Of a stretch of 64,000 nucleotides of DNA, positions 4,661 through 7,895 are shown piece by piece. The notes under the pieces are model-generated. The model ran no database searches. It worked only from the letters and a program-made list of their open reading frames with translations, and was not told the DNA's origin. Source of the stretch: Lysobacterales bacterium 15-68-25 (GTDB lineage: Bacteria > Pseudomonadota > Gammaproteobacteria > Xanthomonadales > Rhodanobacteraceae); assembly GCA_002279065.1 (NCBI GenBank), contig NCKB01000004.1, forward strand, positions 62,001 through 126,000, in the 5' to 3' direction. Position 1 is the first letter of the stretch; each line of letters opens with the position of its first letter. The translations under genes were made by a program, and so were the position numbers.

Positions 4661-4699
4661 GGCGGAGCATCGCCACTGCCCCCTGCTTCTCGGCGCGGC

Positions 4700-5082
4700 C
4701 TAAATCATCGGCAACGCCATCATCAAAAGACCGACCATGCTGGCCAGCCAGACCAGCGATCGCAGCCAGGGGATGCCGCTGACGTAGGTGGGCACATAGA
4801 CGACGCGGGCGACGAGAAAGACCAGGGCGCCCTGAGCCTCGGCCTCCTGGTTGGTATCTCTCGTGAGGGCCAGCAGTGCCAGGGAAATGAAGATCGGCAA
4901 GGCCTCGAGAAGATTGTTCTTCGCCCGATCCAGCCGTGCCGCGATCACTGAGGGTTCGGGCTGAACGTCGCGATTGCCAACAATGCCCTTGAGGTCGAAC
5001 CTGAAGCGCGAGGTCTCCTGCAGGAAGATCTGCGCGACATATAGAGCCAGCACGAGCAGGATGATGGTCGTAAGGTGCACTC
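4700..5082 (-). CDS. MAPEG-family membrane protein
   Basis: A 126-residue protein with four hydrophobic segments and a conserved RAxNNLLEALPIF-type motif after the first helix, which is the MAPEG (membrane-associated eicosanoid and glutathione metabolism) signature. I chose the GTG at 5082 because GGAGG lies six bases upstream, whereas the longer frame from 5113 has no ribosome-binding site. Bacterial members are often annotated as glutathione-S-transferase-like, but substrates are rarely known. No other glutathione gene is adjacent. Confidence 0.8.
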
Positions 5083-5227
5083 GATAGCCTCCAGTAACTT
5101 CGCCCAACAGCAAAAAGCGTCAGAGTGCGGTTTCACCACCATCGCTCATCGAAAAGCCGACTCTGAGCCCTGCTTTTGTCTCCTGAGCTAAGCCTAGCCA
5201 CGAAGCGGCGACGGCTTCGAAGGATTG

Positions 5228-5533
5228 CTAAGCCCCGCTATCGATGATGACGAGCGTGCCATGGCTTCCTTCTGCCACGGCGTGCGGCACACCGGCCGGC
5301 ACGATGTACACCTCGCCGGGGCCTACGCGTGTTACCGCGTCGCCAAACTGCAGATTCATCTGCCCGTCCAGAACCAGAAGCGCCTCATCGAACGGATGGG
5401 ATTCGTTCGGATAAGCCTGGCCGTCCATTCGCACCACCTTGAAGTTGGCACCGGCAGGCCGGCCCACCACATGCGACCGCCAGGCTTCCGGGAGCGAGGA
5501 TGCAAGGGCGACAAGATTTGTGTGTTCGGCCAT
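5228..5533 (-). CDS. Small single-domain cupin protein
   Basis: A 101-residue beta-barrel protein of the cupin superfamily. AAGGAG lies seven bases before its ATG. Cupin motif 1 is visible in SHPFDEALLVLDGQM and motif 2 in GEVYIVPAGVPHAV; together they supply histidine and glutamate metal ligands. The protein is too small to say whether it is an enzyme or a binding protein. It is the last gene of normal base composition before the AT-rich island that starts at about 5577. Confidence 0.8.
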   Translation of the reverse strand: MAEHTNLVALASSLPEAWRSHVVGRPAGANFKVVRMDGQAYPNESHPFDEALLVLDGQMNLQFGDAVTRVGPGEVYIVPAGVPHAVAEGSHGTLVIIDSGA

Positions 5534-5576
5534 GGGGAGACTCCTTGTAGGGCCTGACGCTGGAGAACCAATAACA

Positions 5577-5694
5577 ATAAGGGGACGGCTAATTAATCCA
5601 AGCAGACGCCCGCCCTGCCAGACCGCCCCCCGCACTTAATTAGCCACGCCCCTTTAGTTTGGCATTTAATTAGCCCGCCCCCTTAAATTGGCAA
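5577..5694. repeat. Cluster of TTAATTAGCC-type palindromic repeats at the island edge
   Basis: Three related units are visible. The first (5579-5596) is inverted relative to the second (5636-5654). The third (5666-5684) is a direct copy of the second offset by 30 bases. Each pairs an AT-rich core, TTAATTAGCC, with a C-rich flank, (A)CGCCCCTT. They lie between the cupin start and the stop of the island's last gene. The layout resembles REP/RAYT-type palindromes I associate with Xanthomonadales, but no transposase is in the window, so the class is an inference. Confidence 0.6.
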
Positions 5695-6159
5695 TCAGAA
5701 CCAACCGAAAGGAAGTTTCGTTGAAACTGGGAGCTGCCCTACAATCTCACGAAGCGCCGAAGTTTTTGTCTTTAGGAGCCCTCGCTTGGCAGAATCGGCC
5801 TGCCGGTCTGCCGACTTGAATGCATTACCAAGCGCGTCATCACCAGTCATTAAAGCGTGAAGCTCATCAATGCTCAAATCAAGATGTAGCCGCCCATTAT
5901 TTGACCTCGCATTTCTAAAATAGGCGTCAACCCGAGCACTCAGGCGGTCTTGCCATTGCAGAATATTTCTCTCTTCTGCGGGCAACGAACCACTCTCCCG
6001 CCAATAGTTTTGCCCAGCGATTGAATACTCTTCAAGGGCCACCTCAATAGCCTCAATGCGCTTTTGTTGCGATTGCCTGCGAAAGTTCCAAAAACTCGTA
6101 AACCAAGCCACCACGCCGCTAAAAAGAATATTGATCAGAAAGAGTGAAAATTTTTCCAT
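5695..6159 (-). CDS. Hypothetical one-pass membrane protein of AT-rich island (third gene)
   Basis: A 154-residue protein of unknown function. Residues 4-23 are a single hydrophobic helix (FSLFLINILFSGVVAWF). A basic stop-transfer stretch (RRQSQQKR) and a mostly helical, probably cytosolic domain follow. I preferred the ATG at 6159 (AGGAAG about ten bases upstream) over an in-frame TTG at 6189 that would overlap the preceding gene. It follows the STAS-like gene by 22 bases and shares its AT-rich composition, so it is probably co-transcribed. It could be the membrane effector or sensor of the cassette; that role is inference only. Confidence 0.6.
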   Translation of the reverse strand: MEKFSLFLINILFSGVVAWFTSFWNFRRQSQQKRIEAIEVALEEYSIAGQNYWRESGSLPAEERNILQWQDRLSARVDAYFRNARSNNGRLHLDLSIDELHALMTGDDALGNAFKSADRQADSAKRGLLKTKTSALREIVGQLPVSTKLPFGWF

Positions 6160-6181
6160 GCGCCGAGTGCTTCCTATGCAT

Positions 6182-6553
6182 TTATCCAAGCCGTGTACGC
6201 GGATTTGGCCCTTTAGGCAACTGTCCGCGACGAACTTTTATGGCGTCATCGAGAAATGTTTCAGCAAGGCGCTTGTAGCGCTGCGCTGGCGCTGTATTGG
6301 CTATTAACTTGAGATTCTCACGAAGAAAATCTTCCGAAAAACCATAATGGCGAACCAATCCGCCAAAGGCCTCCTCAAGAAAGGATGAGCCAAATCCTTC
6401 GGTATGATCAAGTATGACGATGACCTCACCTTTCTCAAGAGCCGGGGCCAGCCACTTGTCTCGAAAAGTCTCGCCATTGAACTCTCCATCGCGAGGAAAA
6501 CGCCCACCCGGGATGTCTGAGAAGTCCTTTGCGATATCTATCGTTATGCTCAT
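6182..6553 (-). CDS. STAS-like domain protein (DUF4325 family)
   Basis: A 123-residue protein that I recognise as DUF4325/STAS-like by GGRFPRDGEFNGETFR near the N-terminus and the signature GFGSSFLEEAFGGLVR at 53-68. STAS-type folds act as phosphorylatable switch proteins in anti-sigma partner switching. The two serines at 56-57 sit where such a site could lie, but phosphorylation is an inference. Its ATG overlaps the stop of the upstream ATP-binding protein gene by four bases (ATGA), a strong sign of stoichiometric co-translation. Base composition is much more AT-rich than the flanking chromosome. Confidence 0.8.
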   Translation of the reverse strand: MSITIDIAKDFSDIPGGRFPRDGEFNGETFRDKWLAPALEKGEVIVILDHTEGFGSSFLEEAFGGLVRHYGFSEDFLRENLKLIANTAPAQRYKRLAETFLDDAIKVRRGQLPKGPNPRTRLG

Positions 6554-7656
6554 ATTGTTTCGCTCGTTGCGTAATCTTCAATTACCCATTCGATAAACGT
6601 ACCTCGAAAAGGAACAGGGAGCTTGGTGAGCTCAACCTCATCAGCCTGACTCGATCTCTTTCTGAAAATGTATTGCCCTGAGCCGCTAATAATCCGCATA
6701 CTACCCACCGCCTCATGAAGCTCAACATAACCTTGAATGTCACGCTTCAGACCATTGCCTCGATGCTTTGTTTGTAGTCGTGTCCGATCCACAGAGATTG
6801 CAGCCTCAATCAGCCTTGCATGATCCTTTAGCAGGCCCGACAGAACACCCATGCCACCAATACCCGCACGGATAACCTCCCACAGGTCGCTCTTGGGGAG
6901 AGTTCGTGGAATAGTTAAGCCGTGATCTACAAACATTACAGTCAATTTATTGGAAGTTGAGTTCACTGAAGCCGACATCCACCACCTTTTCACTTGGGCA
7001 TCCACAGGGTAAGCGTGGTGCTCTACGTTAGTCATAGCTTCAATCAGTCCATCGTAAAGAGCATTCGCATCCCGAAGTTTGGCGCCTAACCCTTCGATCG
7101 CTTGCCGCAAATGCTGCGCCTTTGCGCCTTCTGATTTGTGGCCTGTCACAAACTCAAGGAACCGCTCCTCGTCCGGGTCTTCTGGATCCACTAGATCACA
7201 ACTGGCGTTAAGGACTGTGAAGAAACCCATATCCTTCAACCGCTTTCGAACCGATGGCGTCCACTGGGGCAAATCCAAAGACCTGAGCCGTTCGCCCGCC
7301 GTCTTCTCTTTCCAGCGGTCGAACTCAGCGACAAGCAACAAAGCGCCCGCTGGAGTCACATGTTTAATCTTCGTAAAGTCGACCCAAAAGGTTCCTTTCA
7401 GAACACCAGCGGTCGCTCTAACCGCCTCCAAGAATTCGATTGTTTCTTTGTAGTTGCTCGAAAGACTGACCGTCGAAGGGGGCGTGATACAGCGCGAGCG
7501 CTGCGAACTTCCATCGGGAAGTTCACGGAATGGAGCATGCTGGAAAACCCACTGCGCCCTCGTGATATGGAGGAGCCGTCGATGCGACAGCTTCTCTTGC
7601 CGCGCGAGCCTATGTCGTTCTCGCCTACGCTGTAATCGAATTTCCTTCCCGACCAT
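6550..7656 (-). CDS. GHKL-type ATP-binding protein with STAS-like N-terminal region (AT-rich island)
   Basis: A 368-residue protein starting at the ATG at 7656, preceded by AGGAGG at about ten bases. After a very basic N-terminus (1-35), residues 75-155 look like a STAS/MlaB-type fold (FWVDFTKIKHVTPAGALLL). Residues 190-335 carry HATPase_c boxes: N box with Glu206 and Asn210 (LIEAMTNVEHHAY), G1 box VDHGLTIP (243-250) and G2-like HRGNGL (298-303). No histidine phosphoacceptor domain is seen, so it resembles RsbW/RsbT-type protein kinases more than sensor kinases. It overlaps the STAS-like gene, its likely partner. Longer upstream starts lack a ribosome-binding site. Confidence 0.75.
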   Translation of the reverse strand: MVGKEIRLQRRRERHRLARQEKLSHRRLLHITRAQWVFQHAPFRELPDGSSQRSRCITPPSTVSLSSNYKETIEFLEAVRATAGVLKGTFWVDFTKIKHVTPAGALLLVAEFDRWKEKTAGERLRSLDLPQWTPSVRKRLKDMGFFTVLNASCDLVDPEDPDEERFLEFVTGHKSEGAKAQHLRQAIEGLGAKLRDANALYDGLIEAMTNVEHHAYPVDAQVKRWWMSASVNSTSNKLTVMFVDHGLTIPRTLPKSDLWEVIRAGIGGMGVLSGLLKDHARLIEAAISVDRTRLQTKHRGNGLKRDIQGYVELHEAVGSMRIISGSGQYIFRKRSSQADEVELTKLPVPFRGTFIEWVIEDYATSETI

Positions 7657-7895
7657 CCACCCGCTCCCTCCTGTTGGGACATTTTGCCTAGAGTACAGGG
7701 CACGCCACAAATAGCATGCCGTTGAGGGGCGCTGCTCCCCACCGCTCTTGTTAGCCACGACCGAAGTCCGTGGCAGCCACCGCCCCGCCTGCCTCGTCCC
7801 ACCTAACCCACCCCCCATCCCACTCACCCCAAACCGCTTGCCCTACCCCACGCCACCCGCGACCCTGCGCCCACTGTCACAGGGAGTGTTCGCCC

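Follow-up and report, generated by a model that had tools for sequence, protein, structure and literature searches.

VapKSC is a switch composed of a kinase, a STAS protein and a toxin, for which experimental support has been published (Chambers et al., EMBO J 2026, PMC13373217; June 2026). According to the portions of that paper dealing with the mechanism, VapS is the antitoxin that holds VapC, a phosphomimic abolishes VapS-VapC binding, and VapK is thought to phosphorylate Ser48 of VapS upon activation by single-stranded DNA (ssDNA), the related kinase CapK being ssDNA-activated. An aromatic residue of the STAS part (F54 in VapK, W68 in CapK) contacts the ssDNA, and the protection that VapKSC confers against phage Bas42 is lost with mutations of VapC, of Ser48 in VapS or of the VapK aromatic residue (PMC13373217). 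Here we describe a cassette of three genes, G, D and M, found at positions 5695 to 7656 of a 64,000-nucleotide stretch (the window) of contig NCKB01000004.1 from Lysobacterales bacterium 15-68-25. G encodes a kinase, D a STAS-like protein and M a one-pass membrane protein, and the cassette is a membrane-protein variant of this very recently described kinase-STAS-effector kind.

As far as the published account of VapKSC goes, both systems have the same three-gene order, with a STAS-GHKL kinase without helix-turn-helix (HTH) domain (its STAS part being model-based in G), next to it a STAS protein in which a Ser is conserved, and then a third gene, and both occur sporadically in diverse bacteria. 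However, the cassette is set apart from VapKSC because its third gene does not encode a PIN nuclease: a Pfam search of M from the window gave no PIN match, and PIN_4 was matched by a single one of 57 M members (E 0.03). In addition, the cassette kinases form a clade of their own, they have a basic helix at the N terminus and, in the GHKL part, a near-invariant Trp pair (W225 and W226, each retained in 66/69 aligned sequences), and in this analysis the cassette resides largely on phages and plasmids.

Among other DUF4325 loci, operons were found in which a PIN domain comes third after a kinase-DUF4325 pair (L118, E 7.1e-9; L121, E 5.2e-8; L119, below the cut-off). These are taken to be VapKSC, the STAS protein of L118 matching both DUF4325 and the solved VapS, the latter with E 7.4e-14. 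In a tree of 47 kinases, those of the membrane type (35) lie on one side of a branch with a Shimodaira-Hasegawa-like approximate likelihood ratio (SH-aLRT) of 96, and those of the PIN type (3) on one side of another, with SH-aLRT 98, while proteins in which STAS, GHKL and DUF4325, or HTH, GHKL and DUF4325, are fused constitute two further groups. It has to be noted that this is a quick tree, built with every third viral kinase and with the fused proteins cut to their kinase part, in which long branches make the deeper joins unsure.

CapK-CapS, as presented in the sections of the same paper devoted to it, also combines a STAS-GHKL kinase with a STAS substrate and is tied to immune functions; its kinase bears an HTH and its STAS protein a winged HTH, and it controls an operon located downstream. 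In contrast, no HTH is detected in G by Pfam or in its model, none is detected in D by Pfam, and no separate downstream immune operon is seen in the window, where M ends the unit. With the pairs SpoIIAB/SpoIIAA and RsbW/RsbV the cassette shares the kinase fold, the E-x3-N N-box and a STAS partner with a Ser at the matching place, and it differs from them in the additional STAS-like and basic parts of G and in the membrane protein as a regular third member. RexAB of phage lambda resembles the cassette in being often located near the phage repressor and in joining a soluble sensor to a membrane protein, and it is not known to have a kinase or a STAS switch.

The only match of the cassette proteins in NCBIfam lies far below the cut-off. 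Among the titles and abstracts retrieved on STAS, GHKL, VapC and defence, with preprint servers and supplements outside the scope, only the CapKS/VapKSC paper fits; the accessible text of that paper names no membrane protein as the third gene, the word 'membrane' occurring four times, in unrelated senses where shown (PMC13373217). In the available text of the DefensePredictor paper, 'HATPase' occurs once, in a figure legend, and STAS, GHKL and DUF4325 are absent from the main text. DUF4325 itself figures in the paper on phage KIRK (PMC7924643) and in one concerned with gene transfer into a fungus. The statement made in an earlier note on this DNA that no described system has this exact set holds within the literature searched, whereas its kinase-STAS core entered the literature in June 2026. 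The cassette may have been described in unpublished work or only in a table.

Conservation of the gene set

The three genes are consecutive on the minus strand and form one compact unit, with a 4-nucleotide overlap (ATGA) between G and D and a gap of 22 nucleotides between D and M. The G+C content of the cassette is 50.5%, compared to 68.8% in equal-length stretches elsewhere in the window (standard deviation 2.2, minimum 62.6). The tight packing and the AT-richness reported in the earlier note are thus borne out by measurement. M starts with an ATG at 6159, an alternative TTG start at 6189 giving a protein of 164 amino acids, and a scan of the cassette for promoters and terminators gave no signal beyond chance.

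Single-sequence searches were too narrow, returning two relatives in genome contigs and none in viral contigs. When viral contigs were scanned with an alignment of D, 197 pattern matches were obtained, of which 192 were confirmed and 80 kept; the kept contigs contained 81 D genes, or 72 after the removal of near-copies, nine near-identical loci being dropped by eye (L056, L058, L059, L060, L063, L065, L080, L110 and L111). Among the unique viral loci, G is present at 66 of the 67 having at least 900 nucleotides upstream of D, and an open reading frame (ORF) of 90-260 codons begins no more than 150 nucleotides after D at 66 of the 69 having at least 600 nucleotides downstream. That ORF is hydrophobic (segment of at least 1.0) in 65 of these 66, and the complete set of G, D and hydrophobic M appears at 61 of the 64 loci with room for all. 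When the remaining called genes at these loci served as a control, an M-sized ORF followed in 72/190 and a hydrophobic one in 35/190; with the strict requirement of an N-terminal hydrophobic segment, the figures were 52/69 after D and 11/190 after the control genes. Chance ORFs are rejected by this conservation and by the same-locus control. The regular presence of an M-sized ORF after D also disposes of the objection, raised beforehand in the earlier note, that the third gene could be absent from most relatives.

Of 23 chromosomal loci inspected, the window's own left aside, 17 carry G, D and an M-sized ORF (with a weak hydrophobic segment in L025). The other six are without D or M, fused or degraded, or truncated at a contig end. 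In L084, a viral contig, there are two D-M pairs in opposite orientation (D at 501-824 on the plus strand and at 2087-2416 on the minus strand), G being found only beside the second pair in the available sequence.

The kinase, the STAS-like protein and the membrane protein

G belongs to phrog_3364 in the PHROG library (E 5.6e-44), a kinase family that carries no assigned function there, and gives a weak, sub-cut-off match to HATPase_c_2 in Pfam (E 0.034). Its AlphaFold2 model (predicted local distance difference test, pLDDT, 89.7; predicted template modelling score, pTM, 0.87) starts with one long basic helix, followed by a strand-helix, STAS-like part and by the GHKL domain; no HTH family is found in G by Pfam. 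The best solved structural relative of the kinase domain is SpoIIAB (1th8; Z 9.8, root-mean-square deviation 2.9, 128 residues aligned), RsbW (6m37) reaches Z 7.9 in structure comparison, and several of the SpoIIAB and RsbW entries matched are complexes with their STAS partners. A sequence profile of the G family places RsbW (E 5e-4) and SpoIIAB (E 8e-4) before all other matches, and a BFVD search returned GHKL-type proteins together with unnamed or uncharacterised entries.

Sixty-nine sequences of G were aligned, including that of the window and excluding nine near-identical viral loci and the copies of the window locus at L003, L020 and L031. E206, N210, A215, D244, G246, G300, G302, G352 and T353 are identical in all of them. 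Every GHKL motif is conserved, in line with putative ATP binding by G, the lack of which the earlier note had named as a refuting result. The last Gly of the G1 motif is replaced by Thr248 in the window; this column is variable (49 Gly, 14 Ser and 6 Thr), and a degenerate kinase was rejected as an explanation because that Gly is absent in 20/69 sequences. An N-terminal extension of at least 15 residues is found in 60/69 sequences, with a net charge above +0.15 per residue in 55 of these 60, counts for which most starts are those of the longest ORF and contig ends cut some loci. The basic helix and the Trp pair of G are candidates for nucleic-acid contacts. That the N-terminal part of G is STAS-like is supported by the order of strands and helices in the model and by a STAS_2 match (E 0.0046, under the curated cut-off) of a relative, the PIN-type kinase encoded at L119. 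Two loci (L016, 5480-6004; L129, 866-1426) encode short kinases of 174-186 amino acids, by their length apparently without the STAS-like part, followed by D and M with a TG-x-x-F-like motif, as a minimal variant.

D is a member of PF14213 (DUF4325; Pfam E 3.8e-13), without any HTH match in Pfam along its 123 residues. In relatives, a motif script found the second residue of its Ser pair in 93/98 and the first in 77/98, three of the 98 readings being probably out of register. By hand numbering, and provided that the crystallised chain bears a tag of 18 residues, Ser56 of D is in register with Ser48 of VapS. Proteins in which STAS, GHKL and DUF4325 or HTH, GHKL and DUF4325 lie on a single chain occur among L123, L130, L131 and L138, and L114, L116, L122, L124 and L127; the existence of these fused forms shows that G and D belong together. 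In the HTH-GHKL-DUF4325 proteins, Gln-Ala or a similar pair stands at the Ser position, and therefore their DUF4325 part is perhaps not phosphorylated. In two Vibrio loci (L014, 5995-6717, and L019), a DUF4325 gene is followed by a membrane protein of 126 amino acids, with no match to G upstream, and perhaps represents a decoy or a remnant.

M contains one hydrophobic segment, starting at residue 6 (Kyte-Doolittle 1.78). Such an N-terminal segment is present in 55 of 57 aligned M proteins, and Lys and Arg are richer behind than ahead of it in 53 of these 55, which suggests an N-out/C-in topology and a helical bundle that is probably cytoplasmic. The AlphaFold2 model (pLDDT 92.7) consists of helices at residues 2-52, 60-82, 88-105 and 123-141. 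A role as a holin was discarded, the PHROG match being non-significant (E 0.21), and a periplasmic sensor is disfavoured by the placement of Lys and Arg.

Taken together, these results agree with what the earlier note had read from the letters: its HATPase boxes in G are real (E206, N210, D244, G246, G300 and G302), the STAS-like N-terminal part of G receives support, D is a free STAS-like protein and M a single-helix membrane protein. Partner switching of the RsbW/RsbV type, also put forward there, is supported by the matches to SpoIIAB and RsbW and by the likeness to VapKSC.

Mobility and genomic neighbourhood

The set is found on Marinobacter phage AS1, in a Helicobacter prophage, on a phage-like Pasteurella plasmid and on plasmids of Novosphingobium, Vibrio, Leptospira and Acinetobacter, as well as in a metagenome-assembled genome of Oscillospiraceae; a table in PMC7924643 lists it, in the part pertinent here, for Francisella phage KIRK. 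In Stenotrophomonas, it lies downstream of a gene read by eye as integrase-like. On chromosomes it is sporadic, with 4/233 genomes of the family, 11/398 of the phylum and 13/369 of the class (the window's own genome in each count, and each count with its own E-value limit). A fixed housekeeping context, which the earlier note had named beforehand as a refuting result, is rejected by this scatter; the spread over viral contigs, phages and plasmids, the patchy chromosomal occurrence and the swapped site described below bear out mobility.

In phages AS1 and KIRK and in the phage-like Pasteurella plasmid, the set adjoins CI/XRE genes or lies one gene away from them. Upstream of 51 loci, among the 93 proteins used of 94 (L044 left out), 12 match phrog_4 and 8 phrog_6201, both phage repressor families, and 4 the integrase family phrog_1; the genes were called with a simple script and these counts come without a background rate. 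Around 10 chromosomal loci, 5 of 110 proteins (out of 146 genes) match the phrog_1 integrase family. In G151, a member of the family, a ThsB-ThsA-ThsB Thoeris operon is located 1.4-3.8 kb from a G-D-M cassette.

In the window, the cassette lies between ordinary chromosomal genes, those for MAPEG and cupin proteins at one end and, at the other, one for a dehydrogenase dependent on pyrroloquinoline quinone (PQQ), assigned by eye. The dehydrogenase flank is common to three genomes of the same genus (97% identical protein) and the cupin flank to two (100% identical). The two genomes that keep both flanks do not share the cassette: the edges of DNA shared in blastn lie at window positions 5655 and 7797 for G066, and 5652 and 7808 for G064. 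G065 shows a rearrangement of the left flank, its non-shared stretch extending from 4664 to 7798. At this site, G066 carries a RelA/SpoT-domain gene matching PADLOC model PDC-S33 (E 2.3e-104), G064 a gene matching a PADLOC TIR effector model (E 1.3e-8), and G065 a match to PDC-M34A (E 3.2e-25) together with a Hypoth_Ymh gene matching PD-Lambda-3_B (E 2.9e-15). An insert of lower G+C is present at the site in 4/4 genus genomes examined, the window's included, with a different content in each, and the site is therefore regarded as a slot for interchangeable defence-like cassettes. This cupin-dehydrogenase slot, whose counterparts in the other genomes are L170, L171 and L172, is a small natural defence hotspot in the genus; no integrase was recognised there by eye.

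The variable site has three copies of TTAATTAGCC at its left edge, at 5587-5596 (minus strand), 5636-5645 and 5666-5675. A longer form of TTAATTAGCC, with one mismatch allowed, occurs at nine places in the genome including this one, the reversed control giving none. The element resembles a dispersed intergenic repeat and lies at the breakpoint. The features of the cassette and its site are collected in Table 1.

Table 1. Positions in the window of the cassette genes, their parts and the variable site
Feature	Positions	Strand	Basis
Variable site, not shared with G066 and G064, which keep both flanks	5656..7796		blastn edges
Gene G: STAS-like and GHKL kinase, 368 amino acids	6550..7656	-	phrog_3364 match, AlphaFold2 model, SpoIIAB match
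Predicted basic N-terminal helix of G, residues 2-39	7540..7653	-	AlphaFold2 model
STAS-like part of G, about residues 60-150	7207..7479	-	Strand-helix alternation in model
GHKL domain of G, about residues 163-365	6562..7170	-	Range matched by SpoIIAB/RsbW; invariant motifs
N-box of G, E206-x3-N210	7027..7041	-	Identical in 69/69
Gene D: DUF4325 STAS-like protein, 123 amino acids	6182..6553	-	PF14213 match
Ser56-Ser57 of D, candidate phosphoacceptors	6383..6388	-	Motif script on relatives
Gene M: one-pass membrane protein, 154 amino acids	5695..6159	-	Hydrophobic segment, AlphaFold2 model
Predicted transmembrane segment of M, residues 6-24	6088..6144	-	Hydrophobicity

Proposed mechanism and alternative readings

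Taking into account the above, it is fairly probable that the cassette is a mobile anti-phage partner-switching module of the abortive-infection type, a sister of VapKSC with a membrane output. By analogy with that system, D would be the inhibitor of M, G the kinase that removes D, and M the membrane effector, the slot of M behind the kinase-STAS pair being that of the PIN toxin in the PIN-type operons. At rest, D would bind the cytoplasmic helical bundle of M, which would thus be held inactive. Infection or DNA damage would switch on G, the trigger probably being ssDNA accommodated between the STAS-like and GHKL parts with the aid of the basic N-terminal helix. G would then phosphorylate D at Ser56 or Ser57, D would release M, and the freed M would act at the inner membrane by permeabilisation or depolarisation, so that the cell would be halted before phage release. 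The parallel with VapKSC explains the gene order, the conserved Ser, the cytoplasmic bundle and the mobility, and does not thereby prove killing by M; a role in defence would be in keeping with the genomic company of the cassette and with its sister system.

A wider proposal is advanced more tentatively, with slightly less than even confidence: that the set constitutes an unnamed and widespread anti-phage system, in which a Ser kinase sensing phage DNA, probably ssDNA, would free a one-pass membrane killer through phosphorylation of a STAS antitoxin. It would represent the membrane branch of a family with PIN-RNase (VapKSC) and transcriptional (CapKS) outputs, which temperate phages would carry near their repressor to stop competitors.

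Several results weigh against the main reading. The kinase fold singles out anti-sigma kinases only weakly, CheA P4 reaching Z 8.3 against the model of G and Hsp90 a Foldseek E near that of SpoIIAB. The D-family profile matches solved VapS (9z7o) with E 0.16 only, and in the relevant passages of PMC13373217 the ssDNA activation of VapK itself could not be tested. M shows low conservation (mean column identity 14%) and no recognisable effector domain, each Pfam family being matched by at most 2/57 members; its bundle resembles generic four-helix modules, with a best Z of 11.7, below the value of about 13 that the tool gives as a guide for helical bundles, and its sensor-like matches score no higher than helical bundles can through their arrangement alone. 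In PADLOC-DB 2023, no family is matched by G, D or M at E up to 1. Around the 10 chromosomal loci, PADLOC hits were few, with 15 models matched at 1e-10 among the 110 proteins, 11 of which belong to a single Thoeris operon and one being QueC, with no matched control, and the enrichment of defence genes there appears weak.

The resemblance of the M bundle to the four-helix modules that serve as sensors in chemoreceptors and histidine kinases, together with the fast divergence of M and lack of an enzyme signature, would be accommodated if M were a membrane anchor or sensor that places G and D or reports envelope stress, such as the entry of phage DNA, another host protein being the output. This is rather unlikely: the placement of Lys and Arg points to a cytoplasmic bundle, not a periplasmic one like those of such sensors, M occupies the slot of the PIN toxin in the sister system, and no recurring fourth gene was seen in the annotated cassettes, although this was not counted. 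The frequent proximity to CI/Cro-type repressors, the ssDNA activation of CapK in what PMC13373217 relates and the non-significant holin match of M would instead suit a module of prophage biology, in which G senses DNA damage or ssDNA while D and M tune lysogeny, induction timing or lysis. However, the cassette also travels on plasmids, one of them conjugative with genes like those of integrative and conjugative elements, where the neighbours listed are not phage genes; it stands among ordinary genes in the window and in some other chromosomes, and its site in the window is swapped with defence-like cassettes, all of which makes this proposal unlikely to a greater degree than the anchor or sensor.

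The closeness of the kinase fold and motifs of G to SpoIIAB and RsbW could also indicate a regulator of a host sigma factor that travels with a membrane protein by chance, an explanation that we regard as very improbable. Its closest characterised relatives either target a toxin or work as a repressor, according to the sections of PMC13373217 describing them; mobility across phyla fits a host-independent target; and no sigma-factor gene was recognised by eye in the contexts inspected, where no model search was made.

If the anti-phage reading with a membrane output is true, what has been described for one kinase-toxin pair would become a general rule, in which the same phosphorylation switch governs interchangeable killers, a membrane one included. 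Some 60 distinct viral loci carry the set, as do several plasmids, and Pfam, PADLOC, NCBIfam and PHROGs give its kinase and M no function. N210 of G, S56 and S57 of D and the helix of M are directly testable. The finding also raises the question of how a prophage with a killer triggered by DNA damage would spare its own induction.

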